Source: Robiginitomaculum sp. (GTDB lineage: Bacteria; Pseudomonadota; Alphaproteobacteria; Caulobacterales; Maricaulaceae). Taken from it: a DNA stretch of 64,000 nucleotides. The position numbers were made by a program, and so were the translations under genes. This document shows positions 48,185-61,899 of this stretch, piece by piece. Location of the stretch: contig JAJFFT010000004.1 of the NCBI GenBank assembly GCA_021776525.1, positions 186,001 through 250,000 on the forward strand, read 5' to 3'. Below the pieces are notes generated by a model. The model worked only from the letters and a program-made list of their open reading frames with translations, had not been told where the DNA came from and searched no databases. Each line of letters begins with the position of its first letter. Position 1 is the first letter of the stretch.

Positions 48185-48260
48185 ATGCGTTGCAGAAAAT
48201 TAACTGTTCTCCATGTTCCCAAAGCGTTACACAAAGGTCGGTTTTAAATTGGGGATTTTC

Positions 48261-50462
48261 ATGCGCAAAATATTTCTGGCCAGTGCCGCCATTTCTACAC
48301 TCATTTTTGTTGCTGCGTGCAGCGGGCCTGAGGCGCCGGTGAGCGAGGCAGTGGACACCGCGCCCGATGCATCTGATGTCAAAGAGAGTGCAAATATGAA
48401 CAACAATACGGTGTTGGCCGAATGGACCGGTCCTTATGGCGGCGTCCCGGCCTTTGACACGGTTGTGCTGGCCGATCTGAAACCGGCTTTGGAAGCCGGC
48501 ATGGCGACCAATCTGGCCGAAGTTGATGTGATCGCCAACAACCCTGATGCGCCAACTTTTGAAAACACCATTGTGGCGTTGGAACGTACAGGTCGCGACC
48601 TCAATCGCATTTTTTCCTATTGGGGCATTTGGTCTTCCAACATGTCCTCGCCTGAATTTCGTGCCATTCAGGGCGAAATGGCCCCCAAACTTTCTGAGTT
48701 TGGCTCGAAAATAACCCAGAATGAAGCGCTGTTTGCCCGCGTTAAGGCGGTTTACGAGGGTGAGGAAATGAAAACCTTGCGCCCCGATCAACAGCGCCTG
48801 ACCCTTTTGACCTATGACGGTTTTGCCCGTAACGGCGCAACGCTTTCAGGGGACGACAAAGCCCGGTATACGGCGATCAATTCGCGGTTGGCTGAATTGC
48901 ATAGCGATTTTGGCAATAATGTGCTGGCCGACGAAGAAGGCTATGTCACCTATATCACAGGCGATCAGTTGGGCGGCCTGCCGGACAGTCTTGTTAACGC
49001 TGCGGCCGCCGCCGCCAAATCGCGCGACCATGACGGGCAATACGCCATCACCAATACGCGCTCGTCCATGTCGCCGTTTCTGACATATTCAGACGAACGT
49101 GATGTGCGCGAAAAGGTTTGGCGCACATATTACAGCCGCGGCGATAATGGCGACGAACATGACAATAACGCCATCATCACCGAAATTCTGGAATTGCGAA
49201 ACGAGCGCGTGCATTTGCTGGGCTATGAGAATTATGCCTCATGGCGTTTGGAAAACCGCATGGCCAAAACGCCCAAGCGGGCATTGGATTTGATGGAAGC
49301 TGTCTGGCCCGCCGCTTTGGCCCGTGTCAAAGAAGAAGTGGCCGACATGCAAGCGATTGCTGACGCCGAAGGCGCCAACATTACCATCGCGCCATGGGAT
49401 TATCGCTATTACGCCGAAAAAGTGCGCAAAGCCAAATACGATTTGAACTCGGACGAGGTGAAGCAATATTTGCAATTGGATAAATTGCGCGAGGCGTTGT
49501 TCTTTGTGGCAGGCGAATTATTCAATTTCGAATTTACGGCTCTGCCTGATGGCGAAGTGCCGGTGTTTCATGAAGACGTGTATGTTTGGCGCGTCACTGA
49601 TCGCACCAGCGGCAAGGAAATCGGCCTGTGGTATCTTGATCCGTTTGCCCGTCCCGGCAAGCGCTCTGGTGCATGGGCCACCACCTATCGCTCTTATGAA
49701 AATATAGACGGCCCGCAAACTGTGTTGGGCTCTAATAATTCAAACTTTATCAAGGGGGCCCCCGGCGAACCTGTGTTGATTTCATGGGATGATGCCAGCA
49801 CCTTGTTCCACGAATTTGGCCATGCGCTGCACTTTTTCTCGACCAAGGTGGATTACCCGACCTTGAACGGCGGTGTGCGCGATTATACCGAGTTCCAATC
49901 GCAATTGCTGGAACGCTGGCTCCCCACCGACAAAGTGATCGACCAGTTCCTGGTGCATTATAAAACCGGCGAGCCGATCCCGGCGGAACTGGTGGCTAAA
50001 ATCAAAGCAGCAGCGACCTTTAACCAGGGCTTTTCAACGACCGAATATCTGGCTTCGGCGCTGATGGACATGCGCTATCACACGGTCGACCCCACTGGCA
50101 TAGACCCTGACAAGTTCGAGCGGGAAAACATGATTGCCCTTAACGCACCAAAAGAGATTCCCATGCGCCATCGCAGCACGCAATTCGCGCATATCTTCTC
50201 TGGTGAAGGCTATTCGGCGGGCTATTACGGCTATATGTGGGCCGATGTTTTAACCGCCGACGCGGCTGAGGCCTTTGCCGAGGCACCGGGTGGTTTCTAC
50301 GATAAGGCGATGGCCAAAAAGCTGGTGGATAATCTGTTTGCGCCGCGCAATTCCATTGATCCGGCCAACGCCTATCGCGCCTTTCGTGGTCGTGATGCCA
50401 AAATTGACGCGCTGATGCGTGATCGTGGCTTCCCGGTCCCCAAAAAGGACAGCAAACCTTAA
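48261..50462 (+). CDS. dcp: M3-family peptidyl-dipeptidase (Dcp type), lipoprotein
   Basis: 733 residues from the ATG at 48261, which has GGGGA upstream. The signal sequence carries a lipobox (TLIFVAAC), so the enzyme is probably periplasmic and membrane-anchored. The zinc motif HEFGH is at residues 517-521 in TLFHEFGHALHFF, with the third ligand Glu expected in YTEFQSQLLERW. The pattern FARPGKRSGAWATTY and FSGEGYSAGYYGYMWADVL is that of Dcp/oligopeptidase A. It cleaves dipeptides from peptide C-termini. E. coli Dcp is cytoplasmic or periplasmic; the lipoprotein form is common in alphaproteobacteria and Bacteroidetes. Confidence 0.93.
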   Translation: MRKIFLASAAISTLIFVAACSGPEAPVSEAVDTAPDASDVKESANMNNNTVLAEWTGPYGGVPAFDTVVLADLKPALEAGMATNLAEVDVIANNPDAPTFENTIVALERTGRDLNRIFSYWGIWSSNMSSPEFRAIQGEMAPKLSEFGSKITQNEALFARVKAVYEGEEMKTLRPDQQRLTLLTYDGFARNGATLSGDDKARYTAINSRLAELHSDFGNNVLADEEGYVTYITGDQLGGLPDSLVNAAAAAAKSRDHDGQYAITNTRSSMSPFLTYSDERDVREKVWRTYYSRGDNGDEHDNNAIITEILELRNERVHLLGYENYASWRLENRMAKTPKRALDLMEAVWPAALARVKEEVADMQAIADAEGANITIAPWDYRYYAEKVRKAKYDLNSDEVKQYLQLDKLREALFFVAGELFNFEFTALPDGEVPVFHEDVYVWRVTDRTSGKEIGLWYLDPFARPGKRSGAWATTYRSYENIDGPQTVLGSNNSNFIKGAPGEPVLISWDDASTLFHEFGHALHFFSTKVDYPTLNGGVRDYTEFQSQLLERWLPTDKVIDQFLVHYKTGEPIPAELVAKIKAAATFNQGFSTTEYLASALMDMRYHTVDPTGIDPDKFERENMIALNAPKEIPMRHRSTQFAHIFSGEGYSAGYYGYMWADVLTADAAEAFAEAPGGFYDKAMAKKLVDNLFAPRNSIDPANAYRAFRGRDAKIDALMRDRGFPVPKKDSKP

Positions 50463-53834: not shown

Positions 53835-54776
53835 ATGACTCAAGCAATTATTATTGACACCGATCCGGGACAGGATGATGCGCTGGCGATCTTGTTGGCA
53901 CTGGCCGCGCCCAAGGTGTTGGATGTGCGTGCCATTGTGGCGGTGGCCGGCAATGTACCCTTGCCCCTGACCCAGCTTAATGCGCGTCGGCTGGTCGATC
54001 TTTCGGGTCGGCGGGATGTGCCGGTATATGCGGGTTGTGCCGCGCCAATGGAACGCCCACTGATCACCGCAGAAAACGTGCATGGTCATACCGGCGTTGA
54101 CGGGTATGACTGGCCGGACACCCAAACCCCCTTGCAGGATCAGGGCGGTGTAGATTTTCTGATCGAAGCGTTGTTGGCGGCCGGCGAGCGGGAAATAACA
54201 CTGTGCACGCTGGGACCGTTGACCAATATCGCTATGGCTTTGCTTAAAGAACCGCGATGCGCCCGCGGCATTAACGAGATTGTTATGATGGGGGGCGGCT
54301 GCTTTGAGGGGGGCAACACCACACCGGCGGCCGAGTTTAATATTCTGGTCGACCCCCATGCCGCCGATATTGTTTTTAAAAGCAGCCTGTCTTTGACATT
54401 GATCCCGCTGGATCTGACCCACAAGGCGCTGGCCACACCGGCGCGTATTGATCGCATTGCGGCGCTGGGCAATGAAACCGGCAAAGCCTGCGCCGGTATG
54501 TTGCGCTATTTCAACCGCCATGATGTTGAAAAATATGGCTCAGAAGGTGCACCGCTGCACGATCCGTGCGTTATCGCTTATCTGATGCAACCTGACATGT
54601 TTGGCGGTAAAACCGTCAATGTGGAAATTGAAACCGCATCACCGTTGACCATGGGTATGACGGTTATGGATTGGTGGCGGGTCACTGATCGGGCGCCCAA
54701 TTGCACCGTGATGAACACGATTGATGCAGATGGGTATTTTGACCTGCTGAGCGATCATCTGGCGCGATTGCCTTGA
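53835..54776 (+). CDS. Inosine/uridine-preferring nucleoside hydrolase
   Basis: A 313-residue IUNH-fold enzyme. The N-terminal DTDPGQDDALAILLAL is the calcium-binding signature, with later ligands in NEIVMMGGG and the segment AAEFNILVDPHAADIVF. HDPCVIAYLMQ provides the last metal Asp. The enzyme hydrolyses N-glycosidic bonds of nucleosides to base and ribose. No signal peptide, so it is cytoplasmic. Purine versus pyrimidine preference is not clear. It converges with the adenosine-deaminase-like gene, suggesting a nucleoside salvage locus. Confidence 0.92.
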   Translation: MTQAIIIDTDPGQDDALAILLALAAPKVLDVRAIVAVAGNVPLPLTQLNARRLVDLSGRRDVPVYAGCAAPMERPLITAENVHGHTGVDGYDWPDTQTPLQDQGGVDFLIEALLAAGEREITLCTLGPLTNIAMALLKEPRCARGINEIVMMGGGCFEGGNTTPAAEFNILVDPHAADIVFKSSLSLTLIPLDLTHKALATPARIDRIAALGNETGKACAGMLRYFNRHDVEKYGSEGAPLHDPCVIAYLMQPDMFGGKTVNVEIETASPLTMGMTVMDWWRVTDRAPNCTVMNTIDADGYFDLLSDHLARLP

Positions 54777-54790
54777 GCGGGTCCCGTCTT

Positions 54791-55924
54791 TCAATGGCCG
54801 CTTTCATGTGTCCGTAAGTAATTTTCCAAGGCGATAAGGTAGTTCTGTTTTTCGGCTTCGGGAAGCCAGCTTGCGGTGAAGGCATTGCGCATCAGGCGCA
54901 CCATGTCTGCCCTAGAGTATCCGCTTTCTTCTTGGAAGACGACCATCATATTGGTCAGATAACCGGTTTCAAATTCTGCCGGGTCATCAGAATTTAGCGA
55001 GACGCACACGCCTTGCGCGTCCAGATAGATAATCCGGTCAACATCTTGCATGCGTGGGTCTGTGGCCCGTTTTACCGGACTTCCCGTCAGGCATATGCCA
55101 CGCCTGACCAACTCTTTGATCAGTGCCGGATCGTCCACCGCCATCAGGCCATGATCAATGCGTTCTAATGCCACTTGATCGAGGGATTGCCAGATGTGTT
55201 TCAGGGAATCGCGTACGTCCACATCATGATGGCCGGTCAGGTGATACCCTTGTTCTTTGGCGCGTTGGTAAACGGCTTTGAATTTAATCGGCGGATTGCC
55301 GTATTCCGGCCCAGAATCCAGACCAAGGCCCAAGATTTTACCCCGGTGCGCATAGGCCAGATCCAGCATGGCAAAGGCGCTGTCCACACTTAATTCGCGA
55401 TTGATGCTCATGATCAGTTCGGCAGTAATACCATAGGTTTTTTCACCATCGCGCCGCCCTGTATCAATGCCATTGATAATGTCGTCAAAAGCGATGCCGC
55501 GATTGGTGAACGGTTGCGGGTCAAAGAAAATCTCGGAATAGATAATGTTGTTGTCTTTTAGGTTTTTGAGAAGATTAAAAGTCGCATCATAAAAATCCTG
55601 CTGTGTCTGCAAAACATCGCGGGATTTGTTGTGATGACCAAGAAAGCCCATCAGTCCCGGTTTTCTATCCGCAAGTGATTTTTTCACCTCCTCTACAGAC
55701 CTGAAATAATCAATGCCGTTGCGCTTGGTGATGGTCACAATGGTTTGCGGGCTTAGCGTGCCTTCCAGATGCAGGTGTAATTCTGCTTTGGGCATGCCCG
55801 CGATAAACTGTGCCATGGATGTTGCGCCCTGTTCGACATGCGTTGGCGCGGGTTGGCAGGCCAGTACGACGAACAGGGGCAGTAAGCAAAAACCGAGCCT
55901 TGAAAAGTGCAATTTCAGGCGCAT
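54791..55924 (-). CDS. Adenosine/adenine deaminase family lipoprotein with altered HAGE motif
   Basis: 377 residues from the ATG at 55924, which has GAGGAAA upstream. The signal sequence ends in a lipobox (FVVLAC), so the protein is exported and lipidated, unlike cytosolic Add. The amidohydrolase barrel has the HxH metal motif in AELHLHLEGTL, a GRRDG segment, and SLNSDDPAEF at the usual place of the metal Asp. The usual HAGE with the catalytic glutamate is replaced by HHDVD at residues 232-236. Related proteins with HxDxD here exist, I believe, as a subfamily. The substrate is therefore uncertain; adenosine or adenine are candidates. Confidence 0.82.
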   Translation of the reverse strand: MRLKLHFSRLGFCLLPLFVVLACQPAPTHVEQGATSMAQFIAGMPKAELHLHLEGTLSPQTIVTITKRNGIDYFRSVEEVKKSLADRKPGLMGFLGHHNKSRDVLQTQQDFYDATFNLLKNLKDNNIIYSEIFFDPQPFTNRGIAFDDIINGIDTGRRDGEKTYGITAELIMSINRELSVDSAFAMLDLAYAHRGKILGLGLDSGPEYGNPPIKFKAVYQRAKEQGYHLTGHHDVDVRDSLKHIWQSLDQVALERIDHGLMAVDDPALIKELVRRGICLTGSPVKRATDPRMQDVDRIIYLDAQGVCVSLNSDDPAEFETGYLTNMMVVFQEESGYSRADMVRLMRNAFTASWLPEAEKQNYLIALENYLRTHESGH

Positions 55925-55992
55925 AACAGTTTCCTCTTGTCCCGCACGTGGTGCGACAGCCACTAAAGATAACATTGTTTATAGCAATAAAA

Positions 55993-56020
55993 AAACCCCG
56001 GCTGTTTCCAGCCGGGGTTT
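55993..56020. terminator. Strong, probably bidirectional terminator
   Basis: A perfect 12-bp stem (AAACCCCGGCTG/CAGCCGGGGTTT) with a 4-nt loop, flanked by an A-run on the left, so that the minus-strand transcript of the TonB receptor gene ends in a T-run. A second hairpin (GACGGCCCG/CGGGCCGTC, 56034-56056) lies between it and the receptor stop codon. Confidence 0.9.
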
Positions 56021-56067
56021 AATTTTGTCTCATGACGGCCCGAAAGACGGGCCGTCACAAAATCACT

Positions 56068-58788
56068 TTACATAGTCGCGGTCAGACGGAGGTAGTAGTA
56101 ACCGCCGTTAATGCCCATCGGCGCTGTCAGTGGGTATTTCGCACCCACAACACTGCCGAATGGATTTCTGTCCGGGAAGTTGTTGAGGATGTTATTGGCC
56201 CCAACGGCAACCTGGTAACGATCAGCAAATTTGAGTGCCAGTTGAGCATCAAATGTAACTTCGGCACCACCGTTGATTGGGAAGGCCAGATTGCTGTCCA
56301 GGTGATCTTCAAAGAAGCTGCCATAATAGTTGGCACGCACCAGAGCAGACCAGTTGTCCTCTTCATGGTTCAGCGTCAGATTGCCTCTCCAAGCCGGAAG
56401 ATTGTCTTCCAGTTGGCGCAGACGACCAGCGCTGATGTTACCATTACGGATCACTTTGGTGCTGTTATAGTTTGCAGCACCGGTCAGTGTGGTAAAGCCA
56501 CGACCCAGATCAATTGGCATGTTTACAACAAAGTCGACACCTTCGGTGCGGGTGTCAAAGTCATTGTTAAAGAAGCCAAACGAGGTCAGATCTTCTGAAC
56601 CGGCAAAGTCACCAGCGTTCAAAATGCCTGCAGCATCAAGAGAATTCAACAATTGTGATGTTGAATCATTGGCACCAAAGGCAACCCCATTATCGGTCGC
56701 CACAGTCTGCAGAGCAGCAACAAAGTTGAAGCTTGAAGACAGGGCAACACGGTCAGTCACTTTGATATTGAAGTAATCAATCGTGAAGCTGGCAGGGCCA
56801 ATTTTGAAGGCTACGCCGCCGCTGAGACTGTCAGACCGCTCAGGCCCAAGCGTTGGGCGGTTTTGACCCTGGGAAACCAGGAAGTCAGCCATGAACTGGC
56901 CAGCAGCACTGGACAGCGGGATGGTACCTTGGTCAGCCAGAGTAGCGCCGACAAAGACGGTCGACACGTTGGTGACATTGGCCTGACCGGCAGTCGGTGC
57001 ATGGAAGCCCGTGCTGTAGGTCGAACGCACTGTGAAGTTATCAGTGACCTTGTACAAACCGCCAACTTTATAGTTGGTGGTGTCGCCAAACGAGTCAAAG
57101 TCTTCGTAGCGTACTGCGGCCTGAAGGATCAACTTGTCGGTAACGTCCGCCTCGGCATCCAGATAGAATGCAATGTTGGACTGTCTGCTGGTCCCAGCTG
57201 AGGAAGCGATAAAGCCACCAAAACCGTTCGAGCTGGACGAGAAACCTTGGCCATTAGGGAATGCCGCTGAAGGTGCAGAAAGCGGACCAATGGCTGTTGA
57301 AGCAGCATCGCCAGAGCGAATGGTAAAGCTTTCTACGCGGTATTCAAAACCAGCCGCAATGTTCAGATCAGAGGCAAAGCCTGCAACCGGAACGCCATAG
57401 GCCAGGTCAAGGTTGATGTTGTCTTCTTCTTGCGTGTAACCACCAGGGCGGAAAGACGTTGGTGTATTTGGCCCAAGCGACGCATTGATGGTGTTAGAGA
57501 TGAAGAAGTTTGCGTCATTCTTACCGTATTTATAGCTCAAGTCATAAGACAGGCCATTGCCGATTTGAATGTCGCCGCGCACGCCGACTGCGATGCTGCG
57601 GTCCGTCAGGTTACCACCAAATTGAGGGGTAAAGCCGCCGGGAAACAGTTCCACAAACGAGAAACAGTTCGGATCATTGGTGACAACACCCAGAACCGTT
57701 GGGTCAGGGATCAGGCCACCACCAGAGGTCAGCGGGATACCAGCCGGGCAGGCATTCGCATCAATGCCAGCCAAGTTGCCGACACGAACCGAAGGTACGC
57801 CGTTGGGATCAAGAGCACCGGTAACAGGATCAACCGTTGGGCCGGCAAAAACGCCGCCGCGATTGGTCGGGTTACGGAAGAAGAAGCCGCCTTCTGTACG
57901 GCGTTGGGCATAGTTACCAAACGCATACAGTTCGCCGTTTTCGCTAAACTGGACAGCTGTGTTGATGAAGACTTTGATGTCGTCATCGACGCGAGGCTGA
58001 CCCCAGGGCTGTGCAATGTTTGCAGGTGTATCAAACAACTGGAATGCATTGGCAACAGAACCGTTGCCAGCAGCTAGCAGAGCTTCGACGTCGCCACGAG
58101 GGACAGACTGGCTGGTTGGGTCCTGTTCTGAGTATTCAGCAGTGATGTTGAAGAAACCAATATCACCAAGCGGCAGGCCGACATTACCAGCGACAGAATA
58201 AGAGTCGCCGCCACCATCATAGTTAGAGCCAAATTTGGCTTCAAACGTTGCGCCTTCTGCATCATCTTTGAGGATGAAGTTCATCACGCCGGCAATGGCA
58301 TCAGAACCGTATTGCGAAGCCGCACCATCGCGCAGCACTTCGAGGCGCTTAATGGCCAGTGCAGGAATGGTTGAGACGTCAGGGCCTTGAGCACCATCAG
58401 AGATGCCGCCACCAAGAAAGCTGATGACCGCGGCGCGGTGCAGGCGCTTGGAGTTGACCAGAACCAGTGTTTCATCCGGTGACAAACCACGCAGGTTGGC
58501 CGGGCGAATAAGTGTCGCCGCATCGGAGATCGGTTGCTGATTAACGTTATAGGATGGCACGGCAAGACGAAGCAGGTCCGTCATGTCTGTAGCACCCTGA
58601 TTGATAAACTCTTTACCTGTGATGACATCAACTGGCGCAGGGCTATCGGCGGCGGACCGTGCGGTCCGGCGTGTACCGGTAACAATAATCTTGTCTTCGG
58701 TAACGGTTTCTTCCTGCGCGAATGCATAAGTCGTGCTAAAAGCAGTCATTACGAGCGCGGAAGCCCCCATCAAGATTTTTTTATTCAT
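56068..58788 (-). CDS. TonB-dependent outer membrane receptor
   Basis: 906 residues from the ATG at 58788 with GGGGAG upstream; the track start at 58878 is not used. The signal peptide is MNKKILMGASALVMTAFSTT through AFAQ. A TonB-box-like EDKIIVTGTRR is followed by a plug ([55 protein letters not shown]) and a large barrel. It probably imports an organic or iron-bearing ligand that cannot be named from sequence. The last residues are YYYLRLTATM, without the usual terminal aromatic. Divergent from accA. Confidence 0.95.
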   Translation of the reverse strand: MNKKILMGASALVMTAFSTTYAFAQEETVTEDKIIVTGTRRTARSAADSPAPVDVITGKEFINQGATDMTDLLRLAVPSYNVNQQPISDAATLIRPANLRGLSPDETLVLVNSKRLHRAAVISFLGGGISDGAQGPDVSTIPALAIKRLEVLRDGAASQYGSDAIAGVMNFILKDDAEGATFEAKFGSNYDGGGDSYSVAGNVGLPLGDIGFFNITAEYSEQDPTSQSVPRGDVEALLAAGNGSVANAFQLFDTPANIAQPWGQPRVDDDIKVFINTAVQFSENGELYAFGNYAQRRTEGGFFFRNPTNRGGVFAGPTVDPVTGALDPNGVPSVRVGNLAGIDANACPAGIPLTSGGGLIPDPTVLGVVTNDPNCFSFVELFPGGFTPQFGGNLTDRSIAVGVRGDIQIGNGLSYDLSYKYGKNDANFFISNTINASLGPNTPTSFRPGGYTQEEDNINLDLAYGVPVAGFASDLNIAAGFEYRVESFTIRSGDAASTAIGPLSAPSAAFPNGQGFSSSSNGFGGFIASSAGTSRQSNIAFYLDAEADVTDKLILQAAVRYEDFDSFGDTTNYKVGGLYKVTDNFTVRSTYSTGFHAPTAGQANVTNVSTVFVGATLADQGTIPLSSAAGQFMADFLVSQGQNRPTLGPERSDSLSGGVAFKIGPASFTIDYFNIKVTDRVALSSSFNFVAALQTVATDNGVAFGANDSTSQLLNSLDAAGILNAGDFAGSEDLTSFGFFNNDFDTRTEGVDFVVNMPIDLGRGFTTLTGAANYNSTKVIRNGNISAGRLRQLEDNLPAWRGNLTLNHEEDNWSALVRANYYGSFFEDHLDSNLAFPINGGAEVTFDAQLALKFADRYQVAVGANNILNNFPDRNPFGSVVGAKYPLTAPMGINGGYYYLRLTATM

Positions 58789-59185
58789 TGGTCTCCCCAA
58801 ATCTTCTGTTGGAATTGCAAAACTCGTCAAATTAACGATTCCTAATATTCGTATGATTTTTTTGTGATGGCAATGCAAACATGACTAAGAATCCGTGTAA
58901 GCGAAGAAAAAACGTCAAAAAAGTCTCTTTTTAGAAAAATGTGCTAAATTTGGCGCACTTTTTTATCAAAGCAACGTAGTTCTGTGCGCCCCGTCATAAA
59001 TGTCACGATGGAATTGGGTGCTGGAATGGGTGCTTGTTCCGCACGGCTCTATTGCTTATGGTGCGGCGCGATTAAGCAGGGTTCTGCCTTGCGAATAGTC
59101 TTGTGTTTTTTGGTGCCGGTCTATGGCCGAAACCAGTCTAAGCCTTACCCATACCCTTGCCAGAACTCTTGGTTGTTGTCTGAAT
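58789..59185. promoter_or_regulatory. Divergent intergenic region between TonB receptor and accA
   Basis: About 400 bases without a gene. It contains the receptor leader and must hold both promoters, though none stands out. The half-site ATCGTTAA (58839-58832, minus strand) repeats the left half of the operator-like palindrome before the first receptor gene. A short GTGC/GCAC hairpin flanked by A- and T-runs lies near 58940-58965, without a gene it could serve. Confidence 0.4.
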
Positions 59186-60163
59186 ATGTCTGATCCCACC
59201 CGTACATACCTTGATTTTGAACGTCCCATTGCCGAGCTCGAAAACAAGATCGAAGAGCTGGAGCGCTTCAGCAATAGCGAGGACGGGGTCAATACCGCCG
59301 AAGAAGTTGAAAAGCTGCGCGGTAAATCGGCACTGTTACTTAAAAACACCTATGCCAGCCTGAACGCCTGGCAGAAGACACAAGTTGCGCGCCATCCGGG
59401 CCGCCCGCAATTCAAGCATTTTCGCGAAGCCCTGATCGAGGGTTTTACCGAATTGCGCGGCGATCGTTGTTTTGGGGATGATCGGGCCTTGATCGGTGGT
59501 TTGGGCCGTTTTCGCGGGCGTGCCGTTTTGGTTCTTGGCCATGAAAAAGGTCACGACACCCAAACCCGGCTGGAGCATAATTTTGGCATGGCGCGCCCCG
59601 AAGGCTACCGCAAGGCTGTGCGCCTGATGGATATGGCTGATCGTTTTGGCCTGCCGGTCCTCAGCTTTGTGGACACCGCCGGGGCTTATCCCGGTGTTGG
59701 TGCCGAAGAGCGTGGCCAGGCCGAAGCCATTGCCCGCTCGACACAAAAATGCCTGGCACTGGGTGTGCCGATGGTCACTTTGATCACCGGCGAGGGCGGT
59801 TCTGGCGGGGCGGTGGCGATCGCCGCAGCCAATGCGGTCTTGATGATGGAACACGCGATCTATTCGGTGATCTCGCCCGAAGGTTGCGCGTCAATATTGT
59901 GGCGCGATTCGGCGCGGGCCAAAGATGCCGCCACAGCCATGAAAATCACTGCACAAGACCTGCTGGATCTCAAAATCATCGACGGCATAGCCGAAGAGCC
60001 GGTGGGCGGCGCGCATCGTCACCACCAAGCAGCCATCAATGCCGCCGCCGATCAAATCTCGGCCTTTCTGGCGCGCCTGGATGGCCTTTCTGCAGACGAA
60101 TTACGTGCGCAGCGCAAAGCGCGTTTTCTTGAAATAGGCCGGTCCTTGCTGGAAGAAAGTTGA
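59186..60163 (+). CDS. accA: Acetyl-CoA carboxylase carboxyltransferase subunit alpha
   Basis: 325 residues from the ATG at 59186 (MSDPTRTYLDFERPIAELEN); homologous sequence begins here rather than at the track start 59123. The crotonase-fold core shows ELRGDRCFGDDRALIGGLGR, MDMADRFGLPVLSFVDTAGAYPG and GEGGSGGAVAIAAANAVLM. With AccD it transfers carboxyl from biotin to acetyl-CoA, the first step of fatty acid synthesis. No Shine-Dalgarno is evident. Its stop overlaps the possible TTG start of the amidohydrolase gene. Confidence 0.96.
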   Translation: MSDPTRTYLDFERPIAELENKIEELERFSNSEDGVNTAEEVEKLRGKSALLLKNTYASLNAWQKTQVARHPGRPQFKHFREALIEGFTELRGDRCFGDDRALIGGLGRFRGRAVLVLGHEKGHDTQTRLEHNFGMARPEGYRKAVRLMDMADRFGLPVLSFVDTAGAYPGVGAEERGQAEAIARSTQKCLALGVPMVTLITGEGGSGGAVAIAAANAVLMMEHAIYSVISPEGCASILWRDSARAKDAATAMKITAQDLLDLKIIDGIAEEPVGGAHRHHQAAINAAADQISAFLARLDGLSADELRAQRKARFLEIGRSLLEES

Positions 60164-60177
60164 GCGAGAAAGCGGCC

Positions 60178-61899
60178 ATGGCTCTTCTTATTCGCTGTGT
60201 GTCAATATTCCTGCTCTTTGCGACCATTGACATAGCCCTGGCCGACACCGCGCCACCAGATAAAGGCCGCACCAACACGGTCCTGATCGGGGCGCACTTT
60301 ACCACCATGGACCCGGCTTTGCCTGATGTCGAGGCACTGGCTTACGGACCAAACGGAAAAATTATTGCGCTTGGGGATGTGGCGCAGGTGATCGCCATTG
60401 CCGGTGCCAAGGCAAAACGCATCGACCTTGGCGGTGCCTATGTCCTTCCGGGGTTTCACGATGTGCATGTGCATGCGCTTGAGGCCGGGATCAATGCAAG
60501 CCGTTGTGTGCTTGCTGAATTTGGCTCCCTGGCGCAATATCGACGACAAATCACCCATTGCGCGGCGGAACAGGCCGACGCACCCTGGTTTATCGGTGCG
60601 GGTGTGTCCATGCCGGACCTGTTGGCGCAAACATCCCATCCCATTGATCTTCTTGATAAATTGTTTCCTGATCGTCCGGTACTGGTCCTTGATAATCTTG
60701 GTCACGGGGCCTGGGCCAATCGGGCGGCCATGGCGGCTGTGGGTTATGATAGATTAAAGGGTAATCCGCCCGGCGGGATCATTGATCGTGATGCCCAAGG
60801 GCGTTTAACCGGTATTGTCTTTGAAAATGCCCAACAGGCTTTGCGCAATGCGGCACTGCCCCCCAATGGGGCCAATCTTGATGCCAATTATGACGCATTA
60901 AAAGAGGCCCTGAAGGTCTTGGCCCAAAATGGCATTACCTCGATCAGCGATGCCGGGGGGTATTGGACAAGGGGGCATCATCTGGCCTGGCAACGGGCCG
61001 CCCGCGACGGCGTGCTTAATGTGCGGGCCAGCAATGCGCTCTATGTTTTTCCGGACCTGCCCATGGATCAGCAGATTGCTGATATCATTGCCCTCAAAGA
61101 GAGTGTTTCGGATACGTTTTTGCATTTTGATCAGGCCAAAATCTATGTCGATGGTATTTTATCGCAAGGCACGGCGGCTTTATACGCGCCTTACACACAC
61201 GCCCCTGCCGGGATTGAGGTGTCCAATCGCGGCTTTGCGTATTTCGACAAGAGTACGCTTTTTGATGTTGCATCACGGTTGGACAAGGCCGGGTTTTCAC
61301 TGCATTTTCATGCCACGGGTGACCGGGGTGTGGGGCTGGCACTGGATGCGATCGAAGAAGCCCGGCGGCGCAATGGCGTATCGGGTAACCATCACCGGGT
61401 GACGCATGTGTTTTTGGTTGATCAGCGCGATCGGGCGCGCTTTGCGGCACTGGGTGTGAGCGCTGATATTCAAATGACTCCCAGTTCACTTGACCCGGAC
61501 TATTTGGCATTTTTGCGTGATGTTCTTGGTGCAAAACGGGCGGCGCAACTGATCCCCGCCGCCGCTTTGTTGGAGGCCAAGGCCCCAATGACCCTCAGCA
61601 GCGATTGGGACGCCGATACATTGTCGCCGCTGGTGAAAATTCAAACAACGGTAATGCGCAAAAATCAGGGCATCAAGGATGTGCATAAAGTGGTGCAGAT
61701 GATGACCATTTCATCGGCCCGGCTGCTTGGGCAAGATGATCTGACTGGCTCATTGGAGGTTGGTAAATTTGCCGACCTGGTGGTGCTGGATCGGGATATA
61801 TTCACAATGCCCCCCAATCAGATCGCCAAAATCAAAATCCGCGCCACCATGCTGGGCGGCAAAGCAACGTATGACCCGGACACGATACTGGGGCCATAG
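60178..61899 (+). CDS. Secreted amidohydrolase, YtcJ-like (amidohydrolase 3 family)
   Basis: 573 residues from the ATG at 60178; a TTG at 60160 is an alternative start overlapping the accA stop. A signal peptide (LIRCVSIFLLFATIDIALAD) sends it to the periplasm. Domain features: the outer beta strand NTVLIGAHFTTMDPALPDVE, the metal HxH in GFHDVHVHALEAG, KIYVDGILSQGTAALY with the probable bridging region, and HFHATGDRGVGLALDAIEEA. The C-terminus closes with SLEVGKFADLVVLDRDIF. Relatives hydrolyse exocyclic amides or formamides; the substrate is unknown. Confidence 0.9.
   Translation: MALLIRCVSIFLLFATIDIALADTAPPDKGRTNTVLIGAHFTTMDPALPDVEALAYGPNGKIIALGDVAQVIAIAGAKAKRIDLGGAYVLPGFHDVHVHALEAGINASRCVLAEFGSLAQYRRQITHCAAEQADAPWFIGAGVSMPDLLAQTSHPIDLLDKLFPDRPVLVLDNLGHGAWANRAAMAAVGYDRLKGNPPGGIIDRDAQGRLTGIVFENAQQALRNAALPPNGANLDANYDALKEALKVLAQNGITSISDAGGYWTRGHHLAWQRAARDGVLNVRASNALYVFPDLPMDQQIADIIALKESVSDTFLHFDQAKIYVDGILSQGTAALYAPYTHAPAGIEVSNRGFAYFDKSTLFDVASRLDKAGFSLHFHATGDRGVGLALDAIEEARRRNGVSGNHHRVTHVFLVDQRDRARFAALGVSADIQMTPSSLDPDYLAFLRDVLGAKRAAQLIPAAALLEAKAPMTLSSDWDADTLSPLVKIQTTVMRKNQGIKDVHKVVQMMTISSARLLGQDDLTGSLEVGKFADLVVLDRDIFTMPPNQIAKIKIRATMLGGKATYDPDTILGP

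Follow-up and report, generated by a model that had tools for sequence, protein, structure and literature searches.

The protein encoded at positions 54791-55924 of the window (the whole 64,000-nucleotide stretch of DNA that was analysed) carries HHDVD where canonical adenosine and adenine deaminases (EC 3.5.4.4 and 3.5.4.2) have HAGE, and this H-x-D-x-D motif marks a distinct, widespread clade within the family of adenine and adenosine deaminases. On balance we think that the protein is probably an envelope lipoprotein of this clade, acting as a metal-dependent aminohydrolase on a purine-like base with an aspartate in the role of the missing glutamate. The preliminary description had read the protein as if it stood alone, and this did not hold: the motif is found in 25 further loci, which lie with it on one side of a branch in the tree (80/95) and, all but one, have a two-residue insertion paired with a two-residue deletion, so an HHDVD-like motif unique to this protein can be rejected.

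An intact gene for a predicted lipoprotein with the deaminase fold

The gene and the elements at its start are as follows.

54791..55924, reverse strand: HxDxD-clade deaminase-fold lipoprotein, 377 aa (ORF, ribosome-binding site, PF00962, TIGR01430, AF2, Foldseek)
55856..55924, reverse strand: predicted lipoprotein signal peptide, residues 1-23, lipobox VLAC, Cys23, Gln24 at +2 (pattern match, sequence)
55932..55937, reverse strand: ribosome-binding site AGAGGA, 7 nt before the ATG (sequence)

The reading frame is complete, running from an ATG at 55924 to a TGA at its low end, with neither a frameshift nor a premature stop. An alternative in-frame ATG upstream, at 55975, lacks the AGAGGA site and would add 17 residues ahead of the signal peptide. 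Residues 13-23 (CLLPLFVVLAC) match the PROSITE-type lipoprotein rule with the lipobox FVVLAC, and the AF2 confidence is low at residues 2-31, in line with a cleaved or flexible leader. The earlier prediction of a lipoprotein is thus upheld by pattern matching, and an export signal appears to be present. The GC content of the gene (50.3%, GC3 56%) is the lowest among the compared window genes (51.6-57.8%; window mean 54.0%), a small deficit that says little about a foreign origin.

PF00962 (A_deaminase) is the sole Pfam match (E 5e-58, 197 bits, cut-off 27). The protein also passes the NCBIfam model TIGR01430, 'adenosine deaminase' (248 bits, cut-off 217), and scores 283 bits against NF006850, below the cut-off of 419. 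The AF2 model (mean pLDDT 86.8) has the deaminase TIM-barrel fold, and the adenine deaminases Pa0148 (3ou8) and AAur1117 (3rys) are both the best Foldseek matches in the PDB (E 7e-29 for 3ou8) and the nearest solved structures by sequence. These cog1816 enzymes (Pa0148 also as 3pan) are 37-38% and 33-34% identical to the query over the barrel, respectively, superpose with a TM-score of about 0.9 on target, and share the metal ligands, the glutamate of HxHxEG and the GLDSxE..PP.KF segment. They differ from it in having HAGEEGP, and SN in the β7 loop, whereas the query has HHDVDVRDS in a loop two residues longer, KR in a loop two residues shorter, and the predicted lipoprotein leader. Mouse adenosine deaminase (1add, 2ada) also shares the fold and metal site but is a nucleoside enzyme with Glu217 in HAGE and an aspartate in HxHLDG. 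Nucleoside-specific adenosine deaminases often have Asp at the position of E54 in HxHx(E/D)G, and the adenine deaminase literature uses Glu versus Asp there as a mark of base versus nucleoside specificity. A further purine aminohydrolase of the same COG is the cytokinin deaminase Patl2390 (cog1816 group 3; PMC13296781). A 4-hydroxypyridine amidohydrolase described in the literature proved unrelated.

The HAGE glutamate is missing and two loops differ in length

The residues expected to line the active site map as follows, all on the reverse strand.

55760..55780: LHLHLEG, residues 49-55, with metal ligands H50 and H52, and E54 (H50, H52 and E54 invariant in 26/26 HxDxD rows)
55217..55231: HHDVD, residues 232-236, with metal ligand H232 at the β5 end (alignment, counts, DSSP)
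55151..55153: codon of H258, the general-base His equivalent to mouse ADA His238 (invariant in 51/51 rows of both types; role from PMC9483566)
55055..55081: SPVKRATDP, residues 282-290, β7 loop, where KR replaces the family's SN (loop lengths, residue counts)
54980..55000: SLNSDDP, residues 309-315, with metal ligand D313 (D313 in 51/51 rows, D314 in 50/51)

HLHLEG (residues 50-55) and SLNSDDP (309-315) are kept, as first described, and in the alignment all four metal ligands (H50, H52, H232 and D313) and the general base H258 are retained. The claim that HHDVD (GHHDVD at residues 231-236) stands in the place of HAGE is borne out with one correction. DSSP applied to the AF2 models places the β5 strand of the query at residues 228-233 and that of a HAGE comparator at 191-195, ending in H195; from this and the alignment, H232 occupies the place of H195, the metal histidine of the family. 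The motif is not, however, a letter-for-letter swap, since the loop behind H232 is two residues longer than in the 25 HAGE-type rows. The glutamate is missing altogether: a search of residues 232-250 found none, so that no catalytic Glu lies elsewhere in the loop, which agrees with the loss originally proposed. MAFFT aligns the HAGE Glu over position 237, which is Gln in the clade and Val in the query, and not over an Asp, so an aspartate may not be its spatial replacement; the loop is also modelled with lower confidence, residues 231-240 having a mean pLDDT of 74. The β7 loop of the query has 23 residues, against 25 in HAGE enzymes.

The H-x-D-x-D clade

Clade members were gathered by tblastn of plasmids and genome samples, giving 26 distinct loci including the query, and the alignment of H-x-D-x-D proteins called for in the preliminary description was made from these. 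The 25 other loci carry H-x-D-x-(D/N), as HCDVDQ, HCDIDQ, HADIDQ, HCDCDQ or, once, HCDVNQ. Phaeobacter, Komagataeibacter, Streptomyces, Nonomuraea and three lactobacilli are among the sources, along with further alphaproteobacteria and actinomycetes and a single viral contig. H232 and D234 never vary (26/26), D236 is kept in 25 of the 26 rows (Asn in G421), and position 237 is Gln in every row except that of the query, which makes this Gln nearly constant in the clade without defining it. This recurrence of the motif, with D234 invariant, rules out chance or a sequencing error. The lengths of the β5 and β7 loops follow the motif closely, being (9,25) in all 25 HAGE rows and (11,23) in 25 of the 26 HxDxD rows, the query among them; the exception, from G429, is (11,25). 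The missing Glu is thus accompanied by a gain of two residues in one loop and a loss of two in another.

In an IQ-TREE analysis of 51 rows from which the β5 and β7 trait columns had been removed, the 26 HxDxD rows fall on one side of a branch with UFBoot 80 and SH-aLRT 95 (74% of bootstrap trees), a moderate support in a tree with long outgroups. The query groups with Phaeobacter and G374/G281/G451 (88/97), a subgroup with R286, D289 and P290 in common and W or K at 285, replacing the family SN. WP_040175754.1 (Phaeobacter), WP_321533638.1 (Lactobacillus reuteri) and WP_132306428.1 (Komagataeibacter) have the motif, the paired indel and the tree position of the query and, like the other annotated members, are labelled 'adenosine deaminase'.

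Clade members above the thresholds used occur in 10 of 371 other alphaproteobacterial genomes sampled and in 7 of 395 genomes of an actinomycete class. In 248 gammaproteobacterial genomes nine matches exceeded the threshold, all of them HAGE, and none of the matches fetched from 99 relatives in the order of the window was HxDxD, the readable ones being HAGE enzymes. A PDB profile search for a solved HxDxD structure gave two HAGE enzymes as best matches and far lower scores for the remainder. We found neither an assayed member nor a named motif in the open literature, a scope that takes in few subscription papers.

By these comparisons the query appears to be among the most divergent members of the clade. 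Nearly all other clade proteins are without a signal peptide and read HCDVDQ, HCDIDQ or HADIDQ, whereas the query is predicted to be exported, reads HHDVDV and is altered at near-invariant positions. Residues found in the query only, among the 26 rows, are N99 (Tyr in the others), F139 (His), S173 (Cys), H233 (Cys or Ala), V237 (Gln) and S282 (Cys); with V for Gln, H for Cys and KR for SN, its substrate may differ again from that of the clade. It also has single-residue insertions, P206 and E319. No close orthologue was found in the genome_contigs collection, in the 99 relatives, or in 385 genomes of the class and 399 of the phylum.

We also noted an apparently exported HxDxD protein, with the twin-arginine-like leader GRRAFLASACGGLLTASA, on contig 34 of G429 (L062/L105). 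In the tree it sits with Komagataeibacter and apart from the query, so export was acquired independently.

A one-gene insertion beside a terminator

In the window the gene order is uvrB (-), nucleoside hydrolase (+), deaminase (-), terminator, TonB receptor (-) and accA (+), the terminator being

55993..56020, no strand assigned: bidirectional intrinsic terminator of the host locus, at the upstream edge of the inserted gene, with a 12-bp stem; the hairpin is also present in the empty sites of G003/G007/G012

In the congeners G003, G007 and G012 the gap between nucleoside hydrolase and receptor is 107-121 bp and contains the same hairpin and no deaminase, and the one-gene insertion is absent from 17 congeners. 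Comparison of the loci is most simply read as the insertion of a single gene into the stretch from the stop codon of the hydrolase to the terminator. We considered whether the deaminase is a partner of the TonB receptor (56068-58878) and rejected this: the receptor lies at the same place in congeners lacking the deaminase, the terminator stands between the two genes, and in G002 the gap has a different cargo. Being native to the locus, the receptor provides weak functional evidence by its closeness.

On contig 18 of G002 (L149; the equivalent of window positions 54776-56068) the same gap holds an unrelated 2-kb insert, made up of a smaller ORF and a 383-aa open frame with membrane-like stretches, which points to an insertion hotspot beside the bidirectional terminator. 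Elsewhere in the window, an Amidohydro_3 protein whose N-terminus resembles a signal peptide, possibly a further exported amidohydrolase, follows directly after accA (60160-61899), and an M3-family oligopeptidase has the lipoprotein-like leader LIFVAACSG (48213-50462).

The genome of the query also encodes a cytosolic adenine-deaminase-like protein with HAGE (C6) and a cytosolic Add (C5). A predicted deaminase-family lipoprotein with the lipobox LVAAC and a normal HAGE (C1) lies on contig 1 (L004, G000; about 173579-174022), and two lipid-anchored deaminases seem to coexist in this genome. With C6, C5 and C1 already present, the genome has no need of one more protein with the same activity.

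Neighbourhoods of the clade genes

An Ade-like gene (cog1001 adenine deaminase family) adjoins the HxDxD gene at 6 of the 26 loci, counts of neighbours being lower bounds as some contigs end close to the gene. The six are two alphaproteobacteria of one genus, a Streptomyces plasmid and three lactobacillus plasmids, and the three Ade-like neighbours that were scanned fall below the TIGR01178 cut-off. The lactobacillus plasmids also have an NCS2 permease, with IS elements nearby. Gene context of this kind would favour a purine-like substrate for the clade. On these plasmids (L036, L133, L135) the HxDxD gene, the NCS2 permease and the Ade-like enzyme form a conserved cassette, possibly a mobile purine-salvage module.

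The subgroup of the query is set differently. In G281 the HxDxD gene is part of an ABC-importer cluster of SBP_bac_6/8 type with an MTTB-family gene, a layout that looks alike in G451, and in Phaeobacter it lies in a cluster of SBP_bac_5 type with XdhC nearby. Because these members are found in ABC-transporter clusters and not beside Ade genes, a non-purine substrate is possible.

Proposed function and alternative readings

In mouse adenosine deaminase, Glu217 of HAGE hands a proton to N-1, and His238 and the metal activate water (PMC9483566). By analogy, the query would be a TIM-barrel, mononuclear-metal (Zn-dependent) aminohydrolase of PF00962/cog1816, in which H50, H52, H232 and D313 would bind the metal and H258 would activate the metal-bound water. 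The ring nitrogen of the substrate would be protonated by an aspartate on the two-residue-longer loop and not by the HAGE Glu, most likely D234, the first choice because of its invariance in the clade, or possibly D236. The remodelled β5 and β7 loops, together with the E54/GLDSxE framework held in common with adenine deaminases, suggest a purine-like base rather than adenosine, which the protein would encounter outside the cytoplasm. Deamination itself, the choice between the two aspartates and the kind of substrate are thus parts of an activity that we infer, and the preliminary suggestion of a different substrate or a relocated proton donor still seems the most economical reading.

The closeness to Pa0148 and AAur1117 (TM-score 0.9 on target), the TIGR01430 score and the retention of E54 and GLDSxE would equally suit a plain exported adenine or adenosine deaminase, in which an Asp on the longer loop reaches the place of the Glu and the reaction is unchanged. 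We regard this as unlikely, though deserving more weight than the other alternatives, since the change from Glu to Asp comes with two coupled changes in loop length, three other family deaminases of the same genome already have HAGE, and the NF006850 score is 283 of the 419 bits needed; moreover, with an Ade-like gene adjoining the clade gene in three groups, adenine deaminase activity would be duplicated there. Rather improbable, in our view, is an aminohydrolase of N6-substituted purines (of the cytokinin or N6-methyladenine type) that would use the same chemistry to release an alkylamine from a bulkier substrate. Patl2390 is a known cytokinin deaminase of cog1816, cog1001, to which the Ade-like neighbours belong, includes N6-methyladenine deaminases in its subgroup 2 (PMC13296781), and the trimethylamine-methyltransferase family gene in a cluster of the query's subgroup hints at methylamine chemistry; but this last link rests on one genus, and the finding of no HxDxD match over threshold in 248 gammaproteobacterial genomes means that Patl2390 may well be of the HAGE type.

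The residues unique to the query could also reflect decay. With the Glu lost, six near-invariant positions changed (N99, F139, S173, H233, V237, S282), no close orthologue in the genomes searched, and an insertion missing from 17 congeners, loss of function is possible on sequence grounds, and the query-specific changes and export together point to changed function or decay. The intact 377-codon frame with its ribosome-binding site and lipobox, and the retention of every metal ligand, H258 and both clade aspartates, would favour changed function, and we consider a catalytically dead or binding protein very improbable. Returning to a metal-dependent aminohydrolase with an acidic Asp, a wider proposal, which we offer tentatively and with less conviction than the assignment of the query itself, is that the HxDxD clade constitutes an unrecognised cog1816 enzyme class that has a substrate of its own and relays the proton through Asp, the query being an exported offshoot that would act in the periplasm on an N-heterocycle derived from the environment.

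Implications

The query is best seen as a divergent, exported representative of a loosely annotated clade, and less well as an isolated oddity among deaminases; the label 'adenosine deaminase' that it receives automatically is probably inaccurate in detail. The same annotation is applied automatically although none of the 26 members examined has the residue that bears the chemistry. Should the clade act on another substrate, reconstructions of purine salvage would be wrong at that step in lactobacillus plasmids, actinomycetes and alphaproteobacteria. The clade is also a natural experiment on whether, in the amidohydrolase superfamily, another residue on a longer loop can take over as proton shuttle.
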